DNA from: a bacterium
Lineage (GTDB): Bacteria; UBA6262; WVXT01
DNA: 53,760 nt
Assembly: GCA_011773355.1 (NCBI GenBank)
Contig: WVXT01000002.1
Span: 1,361-55,120, forward strand
Direction of reading: 5' to 3'
The stretch's first letter is position 1. Every line of letters begins with the position of its first letter. Positions 1 through 21,281 of the stretch are shown here, piece by piece. Below the pieces are notes generated by a model. That model saw nothing but the letters and a program-made list of their open reading frames with translations, did not search any database and had not been told where the DNA came from. Position numbers and translations under genes: made by a program.

Positions 1-557
1 TCCGGCTCTACCGCTTTCTTTTTAACAATTTCTCTTTTGATTATTTCGATATCCTCTGCCATCCTGGATATTTCCTGGCTTACTGGTTTTTCTGCTTCTG
101 GCTTTTCCATCCCAGCTATGACCTTAGCCTCTTCCTCTTCGATCCGATTCGTTTCTCTCCTGATCTCCCGGATACACTCTATTGCTTGGCGATTCCTTGG
201 ATTCAAATCTAGAACCTGCACAAGCTTGCTAATGGCAGCTTCGTAATTCTGCTGGTGATAATCCTTAATGGCCTGGTCAAGAAGTTGCTGCTCTTCTCTT
301 TTCTTTAGTTCCTTTCCTATAATATTGACGTATTCCAGCGCTAATCGGTTTTTTGGATTGAACTCCAATGCCAGAAGAAAACTTTTCAGCGCAAGCTCAT
401 ACTCTTCTGTCCCGTAATACTTGAGGCCTTGTTCAAAATAATATTTTTCCCCTCCCATTTGCCAAATTTGTGGATGGGCTGGCTGAACAGCAATTGCGGT
501 AATAAGTGAAACAAATAGTAAGACGCTACCTGTTAATTTCATTACTCTTCCTTTCAT
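1..557 (-). CDS. Exported TPR-repeat protein, 3' end outside window
   Basis: The frame starts at an ATG at 557 behind a good Shine-Dalgarno sequence (AAAGGAG) and runs off the left edge, so about 185 N-terminal residues are visible. Residues 1-30 (MKGRVMKLTGSVLLF...) form a basic start and a hydrophobic stretch, a likely signal peptide. It is followed by helical repeats with the TPR rhythm (YYGTEEYELALKSFLLALEFNP, then a second one around YHQQNYEAAISKLVQVLDLNP), and then a charged Lys/Glu-rich stretch. It lies 109 nt downstream of the double-receiver gene on the same strand and may be the last visible gene of the riboswitch-controlled operon. TPR proteins mediate protein contacts; the partner is unknown. 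An in-frame ATG at 542 is an alternative start. Confidence 0.75.
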   Translation of the reverse strand, partial: MKGRVMKLTGSVLLFVSLITAIAVQPAHPQIWQMGGEKYYFEQGLKYYGTEEYELALKSFLLALEFNPKNRLALEYVNIIGKELKKREEQQLLDQAIKDYHQQNYEAAISKLVQVLDLNPRNRQAIECIREIRRETNRIEEEEAKVIAGMEKPEAEKPVSQEISRMAEDIEIIKREIVKKKAVEP

Positions 558-666: not shown

Positions 667-1434
667 TCAACTGTGGAGAGATTCCGTATCTATTAGGGTG
701 GGGTGAGTTTTTTTTTGGTTTTGCACTTCTTTTACGAGTTTAACTAACTTCTCTAAGTCCAGGAAAGGCTTATATAAACAGCTATAAGCTCCCCTGTTCA
801 ATAAATCTCCTACAAGGCTCAGTGAAGAATAGTCGATCATCATTATCACTTCTATACCTGGCTTAATCTTTTTGACTGTCTCCAGCATTTCTATACTAAG
901 TGCCTCTGGCACCCCCACATCCAGAAGCACGACGTCAAAATTATTTCCCCGAACCATCTCAATGGCTTCATCTCCGTTCTCAGCGACTAAAGCCCGACAC
1001 CTTCTTTTTGTTAACATGTCCCTCAAAGCTTCTAAATCCTGTGCCTTATGATCAACTATCAGGACCGAAGGGGCCTCAAGTATGAACTCAATGGTATCCA
1101 CCAGCTTTTGCACGTTGAAAGGTTTTTCCACCACAGCCTCTACTCTTGATTCTCCAATCTCAAACATCTCTTTCTTCTCGCCCGCAGAATTTACTACCAC
1201 TATTGCCATCGACGGGCAGAGTCTCTTCATTGCCTCAAAATCCCACGCGTCACTTTTTCCAGGTATATGCTGGGGCGTAAGCAAGAGATCGAAATTTTTC
1301 CTTTCTAAAAGCGAAATTACTTTATCTTCCTCCTCTACCATAGTCACATTGTAACCTTTACTCTCAAAGATTTCCTTGAGGGGTTCCATAAGATCGATTC
1401 TCCCGTCTACGATAAGGATGTTTGCGTTCTTCAC
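667..1434 (-). CDS. Double receiver-domain protein, first domain degenerate
   Basis: Two response-regulator receiver domains lie in tandem with no output domain (255 aa). Domain 1 (about residues 3-118) keeps the fold and the conserved Lys (K104 in VEKPF), but Pro (P54, in LLLTPQH) stands where the phosphoacceptor Asp is expected, and the acidic pocket reads VDG instead of DD. Domain 2 (about 122-245) keeps the acceptor Asp (D172 in VVLLDVGVP) and Lys (K222 in YKPF), but its pocket reads VDHK. Domain 1 is therefore probably not phosphorylated, while domain 2 may be. The open frame extends to a TTG at 1449 that abuts the upstream stop. I prefer the GTG at 1434, because GAGAGGTGA lies about 5 nt before it. 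It directly follows the PorV-like gene and is likely co-transcribed with it. Confidence 0.75.
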   Translation of the reverse strand: MKNANILIVDGRIDLMEPLKEIFESKGYNVTMVEEEDKVISLLERKNFDLLLTPQHIPGKSDAWDFEAMKRLCPSMAIVVVNSAGEKKEMFEIGESRVEAVVEKPFNVQKLVDTIEFILEAPSVLIVDHKAQDLEALRDMLTKRRCRALVAENGDEAIEMVRGNNFDVVLLDVGVPEALSIEMLETVKKIKPGIEVIMMIDYSSLSLVGDLLNRGAYSCLYKPFLDLEKLVKLVKEVQNQKKTHPTLIDTESLHS

Positions 1435-1449
1435 TCTTTCACCTCTCAA

Positions 1450-2598
1450 TCAGCGCTCCTCAAGAAGGAGACGATTCGCTTCTTTCATCATACTTATCGC
1501 CTGCTTATCTTCAGGATCTAACAATAGAATTTCACTGAACTTTCCAATTGCCCGGATATACTGTTTCTGCTCCAGGTACGCCATCCCCTCTTCGTGAAGG
1601 CTGGCTATTAGAGAAGCAATCTTTGCCTCCTCTTCTTTTTCAATCATAACCTTCTCTTTTTCCGGCTCTACTTCCGGTTTTCCAAAATAGAGACCGATGC
1701 TAAACTGATGCGTATCACCCAAAGTCTTGTGAGGGGTATAAGCGTAATCTAACACTAAATTCTTTCGCTTTAAGCCCAGGCCGAATCTTATTCTATCTTT
1801 TACGTCGGGGTCGAACTTGCCTCCAATTCTCACAGCAATATAGTCTGTAATCCAGGATTCCGCACCCAAACCGGCATAGATAGTCTCATTGTTCAATTTG
1901 TCAAAGTCTAAGGTCAAGGTCAGTGGATTAGTGGGGAACAATCTATAAGCCAGTCCAAACCTGAAATTCAAAGGCAAACTTGCAGATTCTCTAATGAATT
2001 TTATTCTTGTTCCGATATTCTGGATATTGATGGCCACATTCAAATTGTCTACTCCAGTTTTGTAAAGGGCGGCCAGGTCGATGGCAATGGCATTGGCGGC
2101 CTCATCATCCAGTTTCTCCCTTATAAACTTAAAATTCATTCCCCCTGATAACCCTTTGATTAATTTTCTACTATAAGAAAAAGCTAAAGCGAGATCGTAC
2201 GCGCTAATATCACCGGTGGGTACACCTGCGTCGTCGCTACCATCGATATCTCCACCTCCCAAATAGTATATGCTGAAAGCAAGAACTGAGTCGTCAATTG
2301 GATGGCTATAACCAAAAAAGTGATATCCGATATCTTCGAACCATCTGTTATACGTAAACCCGACTTGTGGTTGCTCTAATTGTACAAGCCCGGCTGGATT
2401 CCAGTAAACTGCACTAATATCATCGGCCAAAGCCGCATAAGCCTCACCCATGGCAAGGGGCCGGGCTCCTATTCCTATCTTAAGGAAATCTAATCCCGTA
2501 GTAGAAGCAACGGTTGGATACCTTTGCCCAAGTAAAAACAGTACTAGAATTAGACTCAAAATTATGATTTTTTTCATTGCCCTTTTTCTGTTTTTCAT
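1450..2598 (-). CDS. PorV/UPF0164-type outer-membrane barrel protein with C-terminal TPR helices
   Basis: The 382-aa protein has an N-terminal signal peptide (IIILSLILVLFLLG), then the family hallmark GLDFLKIGIGARPLAMGEAYAALADD-like opening and VYWNPAGL. Alternating beta strands typical of PorV/PorQ (UPF0164) barrels follow up to about residue 310. The last 60 residues (about 320-382) are helical and TPR-like (EEGMAYLEQKQYIRAIGKF). In Bacteroidetes, PorV shuttles type IX secretion cargo at the cell surface; here only the family resemblance is visible. The ATG at 2598 overlaps the stop of the upstream gene (ATGA), which suggests translational coupling. A second ATG 21 nt in, before KKIIIL, is an equally plausible start. 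Its neighbour encodes a possible cargo protein with a type-IX-like tail. Confidence 0.8.
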   Translation of the reverse strand: MKNRKRAMKKIIILSLILVLFLLGQRYPTVASTTGLDFLKIGIGARPLAMGEAYAALADDISAVYWNPAGLVQLEQPQVGFTYNRWFEDIGYHFFGYSHPIDDSVLAFSIYYLGGGDIDGSDDAGVPTGDISAYDLALAFSYSRKLIKGLSGGMNFKFIREKLDDEAANAIAIDLAALYKTGVDNLNVAINIQNIGTRIKFIRESASLPLNFRFGLAYRLFPTNPLTLTLDFDKLNNETIYAGLGAESWITDYIAVRIGGKFDPDVKDRIRFGLGLKRKNLVLDYAYTPHKTLGDTHQFSIGLYFGKPEVEPEKEKVMIEKEEEAKIASLIASLHEEGMAYLEQKQYIRAIGKFSEILLLDPEDKQAISMMKEANRLLLEER

Positions 2599-3536
2599 CT
2601 GATAATTACTACTTTCCCCGTTTTGTTCCCTTTGCTACTCTCAACGCGATAAAGATAGAGGCCACTCGATATTTTATCCCCTCCGCTGTCTTTTACGTTC
2701 CACTTTGCCTCTCCAGCAGCTTCTTCAAGAGTCTCTATTATCCTACCTTCGATATGAAATATTTTTACCGACGCACCTGAGGGAAGGTTAGTAAATGTGA
2801 TTTCAGTGTGACCTTCGCTCGGCTTAAAGGGATTAGGATAAACTTTGATAGCAGGAGAAACCGGCTCTGGCTCAGGACAAATTGCCTCTGTCTCATAAGA
2901 TATTACTAACTTGGGACGGTAAGCTTCCCACTCCGCTTCGCTTGAAAGAAACCAGATTGTGTCAGTATCAACACAATTCTCCTTCAGTAAGAAGCCAAAG
3001 TTAACGTATTCCCCCTTCAACCAATTCTTAATTGTGCGCGTCACGTCCCACGAGACCCACCCATAGTTGATGCCAGTAAGAGATTTTGCACTCTCTATTT
3101 CCCAATCGAAGTCGCCCCCTAAATTTTTCCAATCTCGATTGTCTACACGCCGCTGCCAGGTTACTTCTTTGTCCTTCCAGAAACCGGTGATTCTATGTAC
3201 ATAAATGACTCTCTGCGGAGCGAAATCGTATTCCTCTGCCAAACATAATTGTAATTCCGCCGAGGAAATAATTGCATCAGGAGGTATGGACGATAGATCG
3301 AACCGAAGTACAAGTCGTTTACTATCGTTCAGTCCGACACCCATACTTTCTTTGCTTCCAAAGTTCCTCATCAGGTCCCCAACCCCCTTGGAAATATGGC
3401 TGTCCCGGCTCTTCTCCGGTCCTGGCTGAATTATGTGTTCCTTGGCATACGAGTGGGTAACAATGCAAAATATCGCCAAAACACAGAATACCAATAAGCG
3501 TAGTATCTTCATTCTTTTCCCCATAAAGTTAACCAT
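2595..3536 (-). CDS. Secreted DNRLRE-domain protein with type-IX-like (FlgD-Ig) C-terminal tail
   Basis: After a signal peptide (ILRLLVFCVLAIFCIVTHSYA) comes a DNRLRE-like beta-sandwich (about residues 25-215): RLVLRFDLSSIP, SAELQLCL, VTWQRR and WDVTRTIKNWL are typical of this extracellular family. The last 80 residues look like the sorting/FlgD-Ig module of type IX secretion cargo: VYPNPFKP, SGLYLYRV, GKVVIIR. The protein is probably exported and displayed at the cell surface. The open frame begins upstream at 3629, inside the riboswitch, but that start would lie before the terminator. I prefer the ATG at 3536, which follows AGGGG just after the terminator; ATGs at 3524 and 3512 are alternatives. 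It is the first gene of the cyclic-di-GMP-controlled operon and overlaps the next gene by 4 nt. Confidence 0.8.
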   Translation of the reverse strand: MVNFMGKRMKILRLLVFCVLAIFCIVTHSYAKEHIIQPGPEKSRDSHISKGVGDLMRNFGSKESMGVGLNDSKRLVLRFDLSSIPPDAIISSAELQLCLAEEYDFAPQRVIYVHRITGFWKDKEVTWQRRVDNRDWKNLGGDFDWEIESAKSLTGINYGWVSWDVTRTIKNWLKGEYVNFGFLLKENCVDTDTIWFLSSEAEWEAYRPKLVISYETEAICPEPEPVSPAIKVYPNPFKPSEGHTEITFTNLPSGASVKIFHIEGRIIETLEEAAGEAKWNVKDSGGDKISSGLYLYRVESSKGNKTGKVVIIR

Positions 3537-3545
3537 TTTTCCCCT

Positions 3546-3593
3546 AAAAAAAACCGATTTCATTATCCAGCCCTGCCGGATAGCAAAATCGGT
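3546..3593 (-). terminator. Intrinsic terminator of the riboswitch expression platform
   Basis: On the minus strand ACCGATTT (from 3593) pairs with AAATCGGT (to 3553), extended inward by TATCC/GGATA across a small internal loop, and is followed at once by a run of eight T. It sits between the c-di-GMP aptamer and the start of the DNRLRE gene, so it is the probable ON/OFF switch. Confidence 0.85.
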
Positions 3594-3598
3594 TCCAA

Positions 3599-3694
3599 GA
3601 AACTCTTCGGCAGCTCGGCTGGCATCCAAGCCCCGTGGCTTTGTGTCCCCCGATTTTTCCCCGATTATTCGGGAGTTACCTGTTCGGAGTTTCC
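3599..3694 (-). promoter_or_regulatory. Cyclic-di-GMP-I (GEMM-I) riboswitch aptamer
   Basis: Read on the minus strand, the closing helix P1 is GAAACTC (3693-3687) with GAGTTTC (3605-3599). Inside lie the hallmark GEMM-I pieces in order: CAGGTAACTCC, a P2 helix (CCCGA/TCGGG) with a GAAA-containing loop, the junction GGGACACAAAGCCACGGG, and P3 ending GCCAGCCGAGCTGCCGAAG. The family binds cyclic di-GMP. The order aptamer, terminator, gene indicates transcriptional control of the downstream secreted/outer-membrane operon. P2 is longer than usual. The Vc2 G20 equivalent appears to be G, which suggests c-di-GMP rather than cGAMP, but this needs an alignment. Recognition is from memory of the consensus. 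Confidence 0.85.
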
Positions 3695-3735: not shown

Positions 3736-3918
3736 CTAAACCTTCTCCGTGCCGCGGTAAAGAGGATAATCAGAAAAGCCTTTACCGTTTAAATATTCCT
3801 CAATACCGACACAGGTTAAGCAGACATAATATCCGTCCATTTTCTTTACAAAATCTTTGGAAAATTTTCCCGTACATCTTTTGCAATAAAAGAGTTTTCT
3901 TTTCTTATTCTTCTTCAT
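3736..3918 (-). CDS. 60-aa zinc-ribbon-like small protein
   Basis: The small basic protein has two Cys pairs, CKRC (residues 12-15) and CLTC (36-39), spaced as in a single treble-clef or ribbon zinc site. Its N-terminus is Lys-rich (MKKNKKRKLFYCKRC). The open frame extends to 4002, but the ATG at 3918 has AAGGA 6 nt before it, whereas the upstream part carries no plausible ribosome site. It lies between the terminator of the first NarL-type cassette and the riboswitch. It may bind RNA, DNA or protein; I do not recognise a specific family. Confidence 0.65.
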   Translation of the reverse strand: MKKNKKRKLFYCKRCTGKFSKDFVKKMDGYYVCLTCVGIEEYLNGKGFSDYPLYRGTEKV

Positions 3919-4122: not shown

Positions 4123-4791
4123 CTAATTCTTGCTAATGTATTGCCTCTTCAGGCCCTCCACTACGGCCTGGGCGCGGTTTTTTACCCCCAGTTTCCTATA
4201 GATATGGTTAAGTATGTTTTTGACCATCTTTTCACTCACCAAAAGCCTATTTGCGATCTCTTTATTAGTCCTGCCAGAAGCCATTAACTTGAGGATTCTT
4301 ACTTCTTTATTTGTCAACCGGACATCTTTTATCCCGCTCAAAAACTCTGGTTCCCTTAGCCCCTTCAGTAGTCTATGCTCCATAGCGGGTGGTATGGAAA
4401 CTCCTTCTTTAACTACACACCCGATAGTCTTTATTAATTCACCAGAAGGATCGGTCTTTATTACGTAGCCAGAAGCACCTGCCCGAAACGATTCGGTAAT
4501 ATGGGCTATATCATCATACATAGATAGCATAATAACGTGAACCTCTCTGTGTCTCCTCTTAATCTGGCGCGTAATCCTTACTCCATTTGCACCGGGAAGG
4601 CTGATATCCATCAGAATCACATCTGGCTTCATTCTATCTGCTAACCACAGAGCCTCGGCGCCATCATTGGCTTCTCCCGCTATTTCCATACCTTCCTCGC
4701 GTTCTAATATCCTTCGCAAACCTTCCCGGAAGAGTGCGTGGTCATCTGCTATGAGAATTCTGATTATTTCCCTGGAATCAACCCCGTCCAT
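4123..4791 (-). CDS. NarL/FixJ-family response regulator (cassette 1)
   Basis: The N-terminal receiver has an acidic pocket D16-D17, phosphoacceptor D62 (ILMDISLPG) and K112. The C-terminal LuxR/GerE helix-turn-helix spans about residues 158-215 (LTNKEVRILKLMASGRTNKEIA...). The recognition helix reads SEKMVKNIL, where the two sister regulators have SEKTVKNHL and SEKTIKNHL; the usually invariant Thr and His are M189 and I193. The ATG at 4791 follows the kinase stop by one base (TGAGATG), so the pair is translationally coupled. The partner is the PAS kinase just upstream. Phosphorylation should be normal, but DNA recognition may differ from the sisters. Confidence 0.9.
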   Translation of the reverse strand: MDGVDSREIIRILIADDHALFREGLRRILEREEGMEIAGEANDGAEALWLADRMKPDVILMDISLPGANGVRITRQIKRRHREVHVIMLSMYDDIAHITESFRAGASGYVIKTDPSGELIKTIGCVVKEGVSIPPAMEHRLLKGLREPEFLSGIKDVRLTNKEVRILKLMASGRTNKEIANRLLVSEKMVKNILNHIYRKLGVKNRAQAVVEGLKRQYISKN

Positions 4792-4792
4792 C

Positions 4793-5893
4793 TCACTGTC
4801 GAAGCGGAACTTTTACCTTTATTTTCGTCCCCCGTCTCCGTGCGCTTTCCACAGCGAAGCTACCTCCCAAAAGTTTCGCTTGTTCCTCCATACCTACTAG
4901 CCCAAAATTCTTCGTATATTTACCGTGGGTCAAGATTCTTTTCGGGTCGAATCCTTTCCCATCATCTTCTATCATAACTTGGACGTCCCCATTTTTATCA
5001 GTTCTTATTTTCGCAACCACATGTTTTGCCATAGAGTGTTTCCTTACGTTTCTCATCGCCTCTCTAAAAATTCGATAGATGCCCAACTGCGTCGTTGGGG
5101 GTAGCACCTCATCCACTTCCAGCTTTAAATTAAACGTAATCCCCGTCCTTCTGTGAAACTCTTCCAGATACTGTTTAAGGACAGTAGCAAAGCCCATTCT
5201 GCGAAAGCCCGGCAGGCGCAACCTTAACATGGCGTTCTGGGTCATCTTAATACTTCTTTTCAGCACCTTCCTCAATTCCTTTAACTCTCTCTTCAGATTC
5301 TCTGGACTCTTATCCAGGACTTTCTCGCAAGCATCAATCTTTAGAATCGAAGAGACTAGCGCCTGGGCACAAAAATCGTGAATCTCCTCGGCCAGCCGGT
5401 TCCTCTCCTCTGTCACTGCAACTCCTCTATAAAGATCGACCAGTAGATTAGTCCGCTTATTTACTTCTTTTTCTAGCTGCCGCGTACGTTCTTCTAATTT
5501 ATCCTCCAATTCTTTTCTTTCCGTAATGTCGGAGACGACCGCGACGCCTCCATCAAAATTCCCATTCTTGTCAAAAAGAGGAACACCGCCAATAAACAGG
5601 AGTAGCTCCTTTCCTTTTTTGGTTTTCAACCTTACAAAATAATGAGATGCCTTGCCCTTCCTCCTTTCTTGTAACTCGATTTCTACTCTCTTCTTACTTT
5701 TGCCTGCAAAAAACCAGGTAACCCGCCTGCCCACAACTTGGTCTCTACTGTAACCCAAAATCTTACACAACCTATCATTGACAAAAGTTGCAATCATATT
5801 TTTATCATAAATGACTAGCCCTTCATCAACGTTTTCAACTATGATTCTATGTCTCCTCTCCAGGTCTCCTATCTGACTGACTTTTTGTGCCAC
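4793..5893 (-). CDS. Soluble PAS sensor histidine kinase, NarX/DegS type (cassette 1)
   Basis: The 366-aa protein has no membrane segment. A PAS domain (about 13-125, ending DITERKELE) is followed by a coiled coil (128-160), a HisKA_3 dimerisation domain with the phosphorylated His at H172 (RLAEEIHDFCAQ), and an HATPase_c domain (about 265-363) with EAMRNVRKH, DDGKGFD and GLVGMEEQAKLLGGSF. The pattern is that of cytoplasmic NreB/DegS-like kinases; no haem- or FeS-binding Cys cluster is obvious, so the PAS ligand is unknown. Translation starts at a GTG (5893) with AAAGGGAG in front. It is coupled to the regulator 4123-4791. Two paralogous pairs lie upstream in tandem. Confidence 0.9.
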   Translation of the reverse strand: MAQKVSQIGDLERRHRIIVENVDEGLVIYDKNMIATFVNDRLCKILGYSRDQVVGRRVTWFFAGKSKKRVEIELQERRKGKASHYFVRLKTKKGKELLLFIGGVPLFDKNGNFDGGVAVVSDITERKELEDKLEERTRQLEKEVNKRTNLLVDLYRGVAVTEERNRLAEEIHDFCAQALVSSILKIDACEKVLDKSPENLKRELKELRKVLKRSIKMTQNAMLRLRLPGFRRMGFATVLKQYLEEFHRRTGITFNLKLEVDEVLPPTTQLGIYRIFREAMRNVRKHSMAKHVVAKIRTDKNGDVQVMIEDDGKGFDPKRILTHGKYTKNFGLVGMEEQAKLLGGSFAVESARRRGTKIKVKVPLRQ

Positions 5894-5999
5894 TTTTCTC
5901 CCTTTCCTGCAAACATGATATTTTGCAAGGAATAATGGGTGGGTAAAATAATTCTTTTTAATTAGAATTTAATATAATACAATCAATAAATAGGAACGA

Positions 6000-6668
6000 T
6001 TACTCCCCGCTAATGTAATCTCTCTTCAGTCCTTCCACCACTGCGTGGGCGCGGTTCTTTACTCCCAGTTTCTTGAATATGTGGTTAAGATGGTTTTTGA
6101 TCGTCTTTTCACTCACGAAGAGTTTTTTCGCGATTTCTTTATTAGTCTTCCCAAAGGCGACTAACTTCAGGACCTTTACTTCTCTCTTTGTTAGATTGGC
6201 GCCTTTTGTTCCGCTTAAAAAATCTGGTTTCCTTATGCCCTTCAGTAGTTTATGCTCTATAAAGGGGGGCATGCAAACCCCTTCTTTAACCACACAACGG
6301 ATAGTGTTCAGCAATTCATCAGAACCACGAGTTTTTATTACGTACCCGGAAGCGCCTGCCTGGAACGATTCGGTAATATGGGCTATGTCCTCATGCATGG
6401 ATAACATAATAACGTGAACCTTTCCATATCTCTTTTTAACCTGGCGCGTAATCCTTACTCCGTTCGGACCGTGAAAGCTGATATCCATAAGAATCACATC
6501 TGGCTTCACTTTCTCTGCCAACTGCAGAGCCTCGGCGCCGGCATTAGCTTCTCCCACTATTTCCATGTCTTGCTCCAGTTCCAATATCTTTCGCAAACCT
6601 TCCCGGAAAAGTGCGTGGTCGTCTGCTATGATAATTCTAATCGATTTACTCAGGTTAACTTTGCCCAT
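6000..6668 (-). CDS. NarL/FixJ-family response regulator (cassette 2)
   Basis: A receiver domain (IADDHALFREGLRKIL, acceptor Asp in ILMDISFHG, Lys in YVIKT) is followed by a LuxR-type HTH with the canonical recognition helix SEKTIKNHLNHIFKKL. It is very similar to the regulators at 4123 and 8015 across its whole length. The open frame could begin at a TTG at 6677, but the ATG at 6668 is the conventional start. Either way it overlaps the end of the kinase gene (14 nt from the ATG), so the pair is coupled. No clear terminator follows it; the 106 nt before kinase 1 are AT-rich. Confidence 0.9.
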   Translation of the reverse strand: MGKVNLSKSIRIIIADDHALFREGLRKILELEQDMEIVGEANAGAEALQLAEKVKPDVILMDISFHGPNGVRITRQVKKRYGKVHVIMLSMHEDIAHITESFQAGASGYVIKTRGSDELLNTIRCVVKEGVCMPPFIEHKLLKGIRKPDFLSGTKGANLTKREVKVLKLVAFGKTNKEIAKKLFVSEKTIKNHLNHIFKKLGVKNRAHAVVEGLKRDYISGE

Positions 6669-7767
6669 ATCGTCCAAGCGGAACTTTTACCTTTATTTTC
6701 GTTCCCTTGCCCTTTGCACTTTCCACAGCGAAGCTCCCCCCCAAAAGTTTCGCTTCATCCTCCATCCCTATTAGCCCAAAATTATTGTTGGTTTTGTTAT
6801 AAATTAAAACTCTCCCCGCGTCAAATCCTCTCCCATCATCTTTTATAACAAGATGTAGACTTCTATTCTTATCAGTCCTTAATCTCACATTTACATTCTT
6901 TGCCCGAGAATGTCTTTTTATATTGTTCATCGCCTCACGAATAATTCGATAGGCCCCTACCTGTATCTTTGCGGGTAAGCTCTCTTCCAGTTTGGAATTT
7001 AAACTATAGGCAATCCCCGACTTTCTACGGAACTCTTCCAGATACTGCTTCAGCACAGCAATGAAGCTCGTTCTGTGAAATCTGGGAAGCCGTAACTCAA
7101 ATATGACATTTCTTGTCGCTTTAATACTTTTTGCCAGCGTCTTTTTTAGTTTCGACAATTCTTTCTTTGCCTTTCCTGGATTATCCAGCACCAATTTTTC
7201 ACAAAGTTCAATGTTCAAAAGTGAACTGCTTAAGGTCTGAGCTAAACTATCATGAATTTCCTGGGCCAATCTGCTCGTTTCCTCAGCATCCGCAACTCCT
7301 TTATACAGGTTGACCAGTTGTCCGGTCCTTTCTCTTATTTTATTCTCCAGCTCCAATGTATGTTCTTTCAATTTCTCGTCTGCTTTCTTTTTCTCAGTAT
7401 AATCACAGATAATTGACATTACTCCCTCAAGTTTATTGTTTTTGTCCAGAAGAGGAACACTGCAAACGGAGAAAAATACCTCTTTTCCTTCCTTTGTCTT
7501 GGCTGTTAAGACATAATGCGATGATTTACCCTTGACTCTCTTTCGGAACTCGTTCTCTATTATTTCTATACTCATGCCGTCAAAAAAAGAGCGAATATCC
7601 TTGCCCAGAAACTCATCCCTACTGTAACCAGACGTCTGGCACAACTTATCGTTCACATACCTTACCGCCAACTTTTTATCCACAATGCATACCCCTTCGC
7701 CAAAATTTTCAAAAAAGTTTCTATATTTGTCTCCCACGCTTTCCCGCTGATTTACTTTCTCTTCCAT
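6655..7767 (-). CDS. Soluble PAS sensor histidine kinase (cassette 2)
   Basis: The architecture matches cassette 1: PAS (about residues 10-130, ending DYTEKKKADEKL), coiled coil, HisKA_3 with LAQEIHDSLAQTL, and HATPase_c with EAMNNIKRHS, KDDGRGFD and GLIGMEDEAKLLGGSF. No membrane segment is present. The open frame reaches 7824, but the ATG at 7767 has a near-perfect AAGGAG 5 nt upstream and the 19 extra residues have none, so 7767 is taken as the start (370 aa). Its stop lies inside the start of its regulator. It is a paralogue of the kinases at 4793 and 8685. Confidence 0.9.
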   Translation of the reverse strand: MEEKVNQRESVGDKYRNFFENFGEGVCIVDKKLAVRYVNDKLCQTSGYSRDEFLGKDIRSFFDGMSIEIIENEFRKRVKGKSSHYVLTAKTKEGKEVFFSVCSVPLLDKNNKLEGVMSIICDYTEKKKADEKLKEHTLELENKIRERTGQLVNLYKGVADAEETSRLAQEIHDSLAQTLSSSLLNIELCEKLVLDNPGKAKKELSKLKKTLAKSIKATRNVIFELRLPRFHRTSFIAVLKQYLEEFRRKSGIAYSLNSKLEESLPAKIQVGAYRIIREAMNNIKRHSRAKNVNVRLRTDKNRSLHLVIKDDGRGFDAGRVLIYNKTNNNFGLIGMEDEAKLLGGSFAVESAKGKGTKIKVKVPLGRYGQS

Positions 7768-7933
7768 TGCTTCTCCTTTCTTAACCAAGGCTGTAATAGT
7801 TTCTGCCTTGCTTCCAATATTCATGGCATAAATAAAGTCAGTGCTATTTCTACCATAATAATTTCAATAATTCTACTATGGACTTTCTCTTATTACAATA
7901 GGTCAAAGGATTAAATTTATTGAATTTTTTGTC

Positions 7934-7965
7934 AAAAAAAAAGACCCATCCAAAGATGGGTCTTT
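7934..7965 (-). terminator. Strong intrinsic terminator after response regulator 3
   Basis: On the minus strand AAAGACCCATC and GATGGGTCTTT form an 11-bp perfect stem around a 4-nt loop, followed by a run of T. It lies 50 nt past the stop of the 8015-8683 gene and separates cassette 3 from cassette 2. Confidence 0.9.
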
Positions 7966-8014
7966 CGGGTAGGTATACGAAGATTATGAACAAAAGACAA
8001 TAAGAATATCCTAC

Positions 8015-8683
8015 CTAATCCTCGCTAATATAATCCTTCTTTAGCCCTTCCACCACTGCTTGTGCGCGGTTCTTCACCCCCAGTTTCCTATAGATATGGT
8101 TAAGGTGGTTTTTAACCGTCTTTTCACTCACGAAGAGTTTATTCGCAATCTCTTTATTAGTTTTCCCAGAAGCCACTAACTTCAGAACTCTTACCTCTCT
8201 CTTTGTTAAATGGACTTTTCTTGTACCCCTCAAAAAATCCGGCCTTCTTATACCCCTCAGTAGTTTATGCTCTATGGTGGGCGGGATGGAAACCCCCTCC
8301 CTGAATACGGAACGGATAGTCTGTAGCAATTCACCAGGAGGACTGGTCTTTACTACATAGCCAGAAGCGCCCGCCTGAAATGCGTCAGTAATGTGTGCCG
8401 TGTCCTCGTACATAGATAGCATAATAATATATACCTTTCGATATCTCCTCTTAATCTGGCGCGTAATCCTTATCCCGTTGGGACCGGGAAGGCTGATATC
8501 CATGAGAATCATATCGGGCTTCAACCTCCTCACCAATTCGAAGGTTTCCGCACCGTCCTTAGCTTCCCCCACTATTTTGACATCTTCTTCAAATTCCAGT
8601 ATTCTACGCAGACCTTCCCGGAAAAGTGCGTGGTCGTCTGCTATAACAATTTTAATGATTCCCTTAAGGTTAACTTTACCCAT
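8015..8683 (-). CDS. NarL/FixJ-family response regulator (cassette 3)
   Basis: A receiver domain (VIADDHALFREGL, ILMDISLPGPNG, YVVKT) is followed by a LuxR-type HTH with the canonical SEKTVKNHLNHIYRKLGVKN. The open frame extends to a TTG at 8695; the ATG at 8683 is preferred and begins one base after the kinase stop (TAAAATG), the same coupled layout as cassette 1. It ends at a strong terminator. Likely partner: the kinase at 8685-9779. Confidence 0.9.
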   Translation of the reverse strand: MGKVNLKGIIKIVIADDHALFREGLRRILEFEEDVKIVGEAKDGAETFELVRRLKPDMILMDISLPGPNGIRITRQIKRRYRKVYIIMLSMYEDTAHITDAFQAGASGYVVKTSPPGELLQTIRSVFREGVSIPPTIEHKLLRGIRRPDFLRGTRKVHLTKREVRVLKLVASGKTNKEIANKLFVSEKTVKNHLNHIYRKLGVKNRAQAVVEGLKKDYISED

Positions 8684-8684
8684 T

Positions 8685-9779
8685 TTACTTTTCAAGCGGG
8701 ATCTTTACCTCTATCTCCGTTCCTCGTCTTCTTGCCGTTTTGACAGTGAAGCTCCCTCCGAAAATTTCCGCCTGCCCTTCCATTCCTTTTAGTCCAAAAT
8801 GCTTGGGATATTTTTTCTCGTTTAGGGCCCTCTTTAGATTAAATCCTTTCCCGTCGTCTTTTATGATAACGTGAAGATTCCCGGCCTTATCGGTTCTCAC
8901 TCTTGCATGCACGTGTTTTGCCTTGGCGTGTTTCCTTATATTGTTCATTGCTTCACGGATAATTCGATAGGCACCTACCTGTATCTTTGTGGGAAGACTC
9001 ATCTCCAGTTTAATATCTAAGTCGCATACAATCCCCGTCTTTTTGCAAAACTCCTTGAAATACTGTCTCAGAACCGTAACAAAACCGACTCTGTGAAAAT
9101 TCGGGAGTTGCAATCCAAAAATGATATCCCGATTCGACTTAATGCTTGTTGTCAACATCTTTCTCAATTCCACCAGCTCTCCCCTGACCCTTTCCGGGTC
9201 TTTGTCCAAAACTCTCTCACAAAGCTCAATCTTCAAAAGGGCAGTTGCCAGGTCCTGAGAGCAAAAATCGTGAATCTCCCGTGCCAACCTATTCCTTTCT
9301 TCTGTAACTCCCACTCCCCTATACAAATCAACCAGTAATTTGGTTCTCTTAATTATTTCTTTCTCCAGCTCATTGGTGCGTTCTTTTAACTTGTCCTCTA
9401 ATCTTTTTCTCTCTGTAATATCGGAAATAATTGCGATCACTCCATTAAATTTCCCCTTTTCATCAAAACGAGGCACGGCACTAACCGCAAGGAACAATTG
9501 TTCGCCTTTCTTCTTCCTGAACTTCAGAGTATAACGCGAAGGATACCCCTTAACTCTCTTTTTGAACTCTTTTCTTATTTTATCCTTACTATTACCTCTG
9601 AGAAAGCGCGTAACGCTCTTGCCCAAAATTTCATTTTTACTATAACCTGTAATCTGACAAGCCCTGCGATTGACAAAGATGGGCACCATGTTTCTATTAA
9701 GAACGCACAAACCTTCTCCCACATTTTCAACCAAAATCCTATATCCCTTTAATTCTTGTAATTGATACTTCTTATCCAC
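8685..9779 (-). CDS. Soluble PAS sensor histidine kinase (cassette 3)
   Basis: The order is PAS (RILVENVGEGLCVLNRNMVPIF to ISDITERKRLEDKL), coiled coil, HisKA_3 (RLAREIHDFCSQDLAT) and HATPase_c (EAMNNIRKHAKA, KDDGKGFN, GLKGMEGQAEIFGGSF), with no membrane helix. The open frame begins at a TTG at 9803 without a ribosome site. The GTG at 9779 has GGGAG 8 nt upstream and is taken as the start (364 aa). A consensus sigma-70 promoter lies 75-103 nt upstream. With its regulator it forms the first-transcribed of three tandem paralogous cassettes. Confidence 0.88.
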   Translation of the reverse strand: MDKKYQLQELKGYRILVENVGEGLCVLNRNMVPIFVNRRACQITGYSKNEILGKSVTRFLRGNSKDKIRKEFKKRVKGYPSRYTLKFRKKKGEQLFLAVSAVPRFDEKGKFNGVIAIISDITERKRLEDKLKERTNELEKEIIKRTKLLVDLYRGVGVTEERNRLAREIHDFCSQDLATALLKIELCERVLDKDPERVRGELVELRKMLTTSIKSNRDIIFGLQLPNFHRVGFVTVLRQYFKEFCKKTGIVCDLDIKLEMSLPTKIQVGAYRIIREAMNNIRKHAKAKHVHARVRTDKAGNLHVIIKDDGKGFNLKRALNEKKYPKHFGLKGMEGQAEIFGGSFTVKTARRRGTEIEVKIPLEK

Positions 9780-9853
9780 GACTTTTTCTCCCGACAAATC
9801 CAAAATTTTGAAGGAGTGACCACTACATTAATTATTCTTCGTACCCAAAATTT

Positions 9854-20348: not shown

Positions 20349-21281
20349 CTATTTTGCTCTCCTGTCTATTATGTAATTGCTGCCCTTAAGAGGCTTTATA
20401 TACTTCTTTAACTCAGCGCCTACTGCGGCAATCTGTCCTTTATGGCTAAATTTCCTTTTCGTATTGGTTACTACACCAATGCTTATGGTCATTATGGGAA
20501 ACTTATTCATGTTCCCCTGTCTGTCTTTACCAGTGATGTATCCCTTGGTCTGGTCTTTCGCGGAATAGAATTTAAGAATCTTTTTATCAAACGATTTAAT
20601 AATAGCAGAACAGATTGAATCAACTTTATCGGGCGTAGTAATGGCGATGAAGTCGTCTCCGCCAATATGCCCGAGAAAATCTTCAGGATTGCCCAGCTCC
20701 TTCGTATGTTCGATAATTATCCTGGCTGTCTGCTGGATTACTTTGTCCCCGAACTGGAAGCTATACCTGTCGTTAAAAGCCTTAAAATTGTCGAGGTCGA
20801 AATAAAGCACTGCGAAAAGTCTGTTGCCGTCGATACGCTCTTCAATCTCTTCAATGATTGCCGTATTGCCGGGAAGACGAGTGAGAGGGTTTGCTTCCAG
20901 GCCTCGCAGCGTGCGTTTGAGCACCATCTTCACCCTGGCCAAGAGAACACCCGGCCGGAAAGGCTTTACTATATAATCATCAGCCCCGATGCCCAATCCC
21001 TTAATTTCATCTTTCTCTGCCCCTTTAACTGTCAACATAATAATGGGAATATTGGACAGCAGGAGATCTTCTCTTATTTGCCGGCAAACCTGATATCCAT
21101 CTACCTTGGGCATAAGAATGTCCAGAAGTATCAAATCGGGAGATTCGGTATAGACCTTTTCCAGTGCCTCCTTGGCATTGTAAGCAGGAATAACCTTATA
21201 TCCTCCCGATTCCAGGATATCCTTGATCAGTTCCACCACATACTTTTCATCATCAACAACTAAGATCTTCCTGCGGGCCAT
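20349..21281 (-). CDS. Response regulator with GGDEF (diguanylate cyclase-like) output
   Basis: The N-terminal receiver is intact (acceptor D54, ILLDILMPK; Lys in YIVKPF). The C-terminal GGDEF domain (about 130-305) has NPLTRLPGN, FDLDNFKAFND and the signature GGDDF (207-211) instead of GG(D/E)EF. The product-inhibition I-site is not complete: the Arg of RxxD is Asn (NPED). It may make cyclic di-GMP without feedback inhibition, or be a low-activity or binding-only variant; Glu-to-Asp keeps the charge. ATG 21281 with GAGGAG upstream. It lies 22 nt after the kinase and is the only GGDEF gene in a window that also holds a c-di-GMP riboswitch and an HD-GYP gene. Confidence 0.9.
   Translation of the reverse strand: MARRKILVVDDEKYVVELIKDILESGGYKVIPAYNAKEALEKVYTESPDLILLDILMPKVDGYQVCRQIREDLLLSNIPIIMLTVKGAEKDEIKGLGIGADDYIVKPFRPGVLLARVKMVLKRTLRGLEANPLTRLPGNTAIIEEIEERIDGNRLFAVLYFDLDNFKAFNDRYSFQFGDKVIQQTARIIIEHTKELGNPEDFLGHIGGDDFIAITTPDKVDSICSAIIKSFDKKILKFYSAKDQTKGYITGKDRQGNMNKFPIMTISIGVVTNTKRKFSHKGQIAAVGAELKKYIKPLKGSNYIIDRRAK

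Follow-up and report, generated by a model that had tools for sequence, protein, structure and literature searches.

The window, that is the whole analysed stretch of 53,760 nucleotides, carries at its low-numbered end a minus-strand operon that begins with a c-di-GMP-I (GEMM-I) riboswitch followed by an intrinsic terminator. The features are as follows.

3606..3690 (-), c-di-GMP-I (GEMM-I) riboswitch aptamer (RF01051, 42.6 bits; G/A/C contact triad)
3687..3694 (-), P1 5' strand GGAAACUC, pairs with 3598-3605
3608..3622 (-), strand A, the P3 3' strand of the aptamer CCAGCCGAGCUGCCG, which could leave the aptamer and pair with A-prime
3598..3605 (-), P1 3' strand GAGUUUCU, pairs with 3687-3694
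3551..3595 (-), intrinsic terminator hairpin (-23.6 kcal/mol as an isolated hairpin)
3586-3594 and 3552-3560 (-), outer arms of the terminator, AACCGATTT and AAATCGGTT, respectively
3567..3578 (-), strand A-prime CGGCAGGGCUGG, part of the terminator and candidate partner of A in an antiterminator
3546..3553 (-), U8 tract of the terminator, read from the sequence
2595..3536 (-), secreted protein with a DNRLRE/CBM96 domain and, at its C-terminus, a type-A sorting domain of T9SS (PF24517, NF033679, TIGR04183)
1450..2598 (-), PorV/PorQ-family outer-membrane barrel with a C-terminal TPR part (NF033709; 6h3i_F)
667..1449 (-), double-receiver response regulator without an output domain (PF00072, two stretches)
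3..557 (-), TPR region forming the N-terminus of a TPR-GAF-GGDEF diguanylate cyclase; the GGDEF domain is outside the window (contig C77 of the window's own genome, G000:C77:248-715)

The original prediction described the first two genes as a DNRLRE/FlgD-Ig-type secreted protein with a type-IX-like tail and a PorV-like barrel. For the first gene, the DNRLRE_dom and Por_Secre_tail (TIGR04183) profiles score 99.8 and 37.7 bits, respectively (cut-offs 34 and 23), so the DNRLRE domain and the tail stand, whereas FlgD_ig stays under its cut-off. The protein carries a signal peptide, and its best starts are 3536, 3524 or 3512; the mechanical TTG start at 3629 is disfavoured, as it sits inside the leader. 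As for the barrel, PorV_fam NF033709 reaches 225.5 bits (cut-off 90) and the solved PorV 6h3i_F is matched with E 3.6e-15, which agrees with the earlier assignment.

The operon is longer than was said then, and extends through the double-receiver protein to a GGDEF cyclase. The GAF-GGDEF part of the latter is found at G000:C77:203-1357, across two N bases, with a GGDEF match in G000 of E 2.7e-47. A frameshift in the cyclase is ruled out, the split of the frame being an NN assembly gap; its orthologues in two genomes of the same genus, G002 and G003, are single intact proteins of 576/577 aa with an intact GGEEF active-site motif and, five residues upstream, RxxD as the inhibition-site motif (TIGR00254 173 bits for the G003 protein). 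Three species (own genome, G002, and G003) have riboswitch, tail protein, PorV, receiver, and cyclase in the same sequence, and in G002 and G003 the operon ends ahead of the ribosomal L10/L12-rpoB genes. At locus L078, the operon strand from riboswitch to cyclase has no terminator-like site.

Directly upstream of the riboswitch operon, at 4123-9803 (-), the window also holds three successive pairs of a PAS/HisKA_3-type kinase and a NarL-type regulator, evidently tandem duplicates (one pair was analysed with Pfam). Just upstream of the leader, a 60-aa protein with two CxxC pairs (3736-3918, -) has no Pfam match. Another, partial GGDEF domain (~20592-20888, -; G000:C77:21952-22248, 54.9 bits) is located in a 316-aa frame and is apparently truncated or degenerate.

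According to the Rfam covariance model, the aptamer is an ordinary RF01051 member: the match at 3690..3606 (-) has 42.6 bits and E 4.7e-5, above the gathering score of 35, and the aptamer claimed originally thus passes the Rfam check proposed along with it. P1 has 8 bp and is intact, P2 is atypical with an enlarged 15-nt loop, and the score is the lowest among the 8 aptamers of the own genome. At the contact positions taken to correspond to G20, A47, and C92 of Vc2, the window aptamer has G, A, and C. The ligand contacts of cGAMP riboswitches, which also served for this numbering, come from PMC6274999, and position 20 is a selectivity factor in GEMM-I (PMC9262584). Since this triad is the canonical one, c-di-GMP, not cGAMP, is the expected ligand of the window aptamer.

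It is highly improbable that the ligand is instead cGAMP, the alternative named in the original prediction, or a different dinucleotide, as for GEMM-Ib or c-di-GMP-I-GGC. RF03167 (c-di-GMP-I-GGC) does score 41.8 bits on the window aptamer, but its gathering score is 59, and the base at the A47 position is A, not G; together with the G/A/C triad this leads us to reject both a cGAMP and a GGC-variant ligand. The cyclase of the operon also speaks against this alternative, having GGEEF and an Asp in NDTYGHPMGD at the position where Hypr cGAMP synthases carry Ser (PMC6456294); its motifs argue for synthesis of c-di-GMP rather than cGAMP.

The RNA block that runs from P1 through the U tract shows 96.0% and 93.3% identity to the orthologous leaders of G002 and G003, respectively (alignment of three species), and the corresponding values between the window and these genomes are 69-70% for the 300 bases upstream of the leader and 74-88% for the coding region. 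The terminator is present directly after the aptamer, as had been claimed (hairpin 3595-3551, U8 tract 3553-3546). In the window group, all of it comes after the aptamer (+10 to +12), and the two have no strand in common. The candidate link between them is the A:A-prime duplex, which has 12 bp and -23.0 kcal/mol by folding and is kept in G002 and G003 via a G-U pair. Complementarity of this degree has a shuffle frequency of 0.02-0.06, and ~1% of unrelated window stretches pair equally well. Folding also has the 5' arm of the terminator held by upstream RNA at 0.63-0.85 in the free leader vs 0.11-0.35 with the aptamer fixed. At equilibrium, the terminator forms whether the aptamer is folded or not, and A:A-prime is not favoured. 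Since the equilibrium terminator appears in either aptamer state, OFF control of the window operon would have to be kinetic. The shuffles and equilibrium folding cut the A:A-prime pairing from strong proof of OFF control to moderate support; kinetic OFF control is thus a hypothesis with moderate support, and coupling of aptamer and terminator in the window leader is likewise no more than moderately supported.

The formation of the terminator in either state, the lowest score of the eight, and the enlarged P2 loop would also suit an aptamer that is decayed or weakly coupled, with the terminator attenuating constitutively and c-di-GMP having little effect there. Several predicted class I switches of Clostridioides difficile are indeed non-functional (PMC6200980). 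For the window, however, we consider this unlikely, because conservation in three species is far higher in the RNA block than on either side of it, and both the triad and P1 are intact.

Regarding terminator/aptamer overlap and folding, the leaders of the genus split into two layouts. In class A, the 5' arm of the terminator is the aptamer's own 3' strand; because aptamer and terminator are then mutually exclusive, the ligand should turn the gene ON. The zero terminator probability of bound class A leaders holds by construction, as it follows from fixing P3. In class B, to which the window leader and those of a SprA-like gene belong, the whole terminator follows the aptamer. Class A is predicted to be ON and class B to be OFF. 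For the SprA leader, modelling strongly supports coupling of aptamer and terminator. The P1 5' strand GUCUUCUCCG pairs there either with a proximal AGAAGAC, which closes the aptamer, or with a distal CGGAGAAGAC inside the terminator, and in each of the four species folding gives a terminator probability of 0.00-0.20 for the free leader and of 1.00 once the aptamer is fixed. Shuffled sequences seldom show the distal match (0 to 41 of 5000), and interspecies changes preserve the pairing.

The window riboswitch could also bind c-di-GMP and be an ON switch, by which the surface protein and the cyclase would rise together in a positive-feedback attachment latch. Surface proteins at high c-di-GMP would suit attachment, and the same genomes have many ON platforms, class A including one PorV group as well as the tail + PorV operons of the sister family. 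Nevertheless, this is quite improbable, given that the window terminator shares no strand with the aptamer, which leaves the ligand no visible way to block it, and that the window has the layout of the OFF switch Cd1 (PMC9262584).

The preferred reading is that the c-di-GMP-I riboswitch of the window probably controls, by termination, the operon of cargo, PorV, receiver, and cyclase, and is OFF at high c-di-GMP; the original prediction had left the direction open. Without ligand, A would pair with the A-prime segment of the terminator while this segment is emerging, which would delay the hairpin and allow RNA polymerase to read through. With c-di-GMP bound, A would be locked in P3, A-prime would fold locally, and the terminator would form. 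Because the last gene of the operon is predicted to make c-di-GMP, closing the operon would amount to negative feedback.

c-di-GMP-I matches number 8 in the own genome (1.33 Mb, 84% complete), 12, 13, and 16 in three genomes of the same genus, and 1 in each of two sister-family genomes; the genus genomes span 1.3-2.0 Mb, and all genomes are fragmented MAGs. A PorV-family gene is first or second after the switch in the groups of the window, C39 (tail + PorV), C55/C82, and C51/C9/C7, and the switch at G003:C65 likewise precedes a PorV-family barrel, next to a beta-helix protein with a tail. Per genome, 2-4 PorV genes follow switches vs 0.17-0.48 expected (p 0.0005-0.03, with gene totals estimated from genome length). 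Each of the single switches of the sister family heads a tail + PorV operon homologous to the C39 group, so the pairing of switch, tail, and PorV is older than the genus. The switch/PorV pairing is no accident of a single locus, as further operons of the genus and those of the sister family repeat it. Ten c-di-GMP-I leaders from unrelated genomes, downstream of which neither PorV, SprA, nor a T9SS tail is found, speak against an association by chance across bacteria. Further targets of the switches are an operon with CsaB, response regulators, and secreted beta-helix and carbohydrate-binding proteins. As for turnover of the ligand, GGDEF matches number 5-8 in each of the six genomes (G000-G005), and no EAL domain is found in these six, though control genomes gave matches; c-di-GMP breakdown must therefore use a non-EAL enzyme.

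Several of these loci have peculiarities of their own. In L013 (G000:C60), the last gene of the switch operon encodes CsaB, an enzyme of S-layer anchoring (TIGR03609, 260 bits), and in L014 (G000:C55, 3391-6974) the switch is followed by a PorV-family barrel and then by a fusion of FliF C-terminal, FliG, and TPR domains. Tandem c-di-GMP-I aptamers, ~160-170 bases apart and each with its own terminator, occur in all four genus genomes (L012 at G000:C58, L046, L058, and L069; the own-genome contig ends within the second aptamer), with HEAT-repeat and spermine-synthase/TPR proteins downstream. L051, L066, L079, and L052, from three species, share an unusual GEMM-I architecture, in which an additional hairpin separates the P2 3' strand from the GCAAA junction. 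In L044 (G001:C24), two homologous secreted proteins of an unknown family, ~2 kb apart, each follow a switch, and the layouts are opposite: the switch at 5992 is of the downstream-terminator type and the one at 8023 of the shared-strand type.

Most knowledge of type IX secretion comes from Bacteroidota. Here, in each of the four genus genomes, the first gene behind one of the switches is SprA/Sov-like (contig C47 in G000). In G000 it matches TIGR04189 with 162 bits over four stretches (E 1e-47), below the equivalog cut-off of 200, and a profile of its homologues finds the solved SprA 6h3i with E 1.7e-18. According to hmmscan, the 1700-aa protein has no Pfam family, and Pfam SprA_N alone is too weak as proof of homology; the homology is settled by TIGR04189 together with the profile search against solved structures. 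No riboswitch is detected by a lax scan upstream of the sister-family SprA gene. Peptidase_C25 (PorU type) is absent in five of the six genomes, all incomplete, and present as one fragment in G000, and TIGR03517 (GldM) has no match in these genomes, nor in the control genomes. Of the T9SS components, a SprA/Sov translocon, a PorV shuttle, and type-A cargo are all found by sequence. Because C25 is represented by the G000 fragment only and no GldM turned up, the system is best called 'type-IX-like' rather than a complete T9SS.

For the system of this little-sampled lineage as a whole, there is about an even chance that c-di-GMP runs type-IX-like secretion by termination, through a SprA switch, PorV/cargo switches of opposite sign, and a cyclase under negative feedback by its own product. 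High c-di-GMP would close SprA and the window PorV/cargo operon with its cyclase, and would open the class A surface genes, another PorV among them, which would swap the sets of surface-export proteins.

Among the closest known counterparts of the window is Cd1, which controls the flgB operon of C. difficile. Both have a class I aptamer that can coexist with the terminator, and the OFF logic of Cd1, with an antiterminator built with the aptamer 3' strand, is that predicted for the window (PMC9262584, PMC6366702). Cd1, however, controls flagella and has no cyclase described in its operon, whereas the window switch precedes T9SS-type export genes and a cyclase. Moreover, the functional class I switches of C. 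difficile are all OFF, and the genus studied here has both layouts in one genome. Class A resembles the pilM GEMM-Ib switch of Geobacter metallireducens, whose terminator includes the aptamer 3' strand and which is ON (PMC9262584); the latter, however, senses cGAMP, whereas the leaders here bear the c-di-GMP triad and the window leader has the other layout. With the T9SS of Bacteroidota (SprA/Sov, PorV, type-A CTD) the genus shares a SprA-like gene, PorV-family barrels, and type-A tails, but it differs in that PorU/C25 (bar the fragment) and GldM were not found, in ~13-30 PorV paralogues per genome, and in the predicted riboswitch control.

In the literature searched, which includes few of the subscription papers, no report of riboswitch control of type IX secretion was found, nor one of c-di-GMP riboswitch control over PorV, SprA, or T9SS cargo, in line with the original remark that no described pairing of GEMM-I with a PorV-type operon was known. 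One Porphyromonas paper states that the genome concerned has no classical c-di-GMP genes (PMC10101095). C. difficile, with 16 c-di-GMP switches of both classes, has been called exceptional (PMC6200980); the genomes analysed here have up to 16 switches of class I in ~2 Mb. The CsaB operon behind a switch links c-di-GMP to a second surface system. Translocon, shuttles, and cargo of the type-IX-like system all stand behind predicted c-di-GMP sensors, and the two layouts in one genome offer a testable case of a swap between sets of surface proteins.
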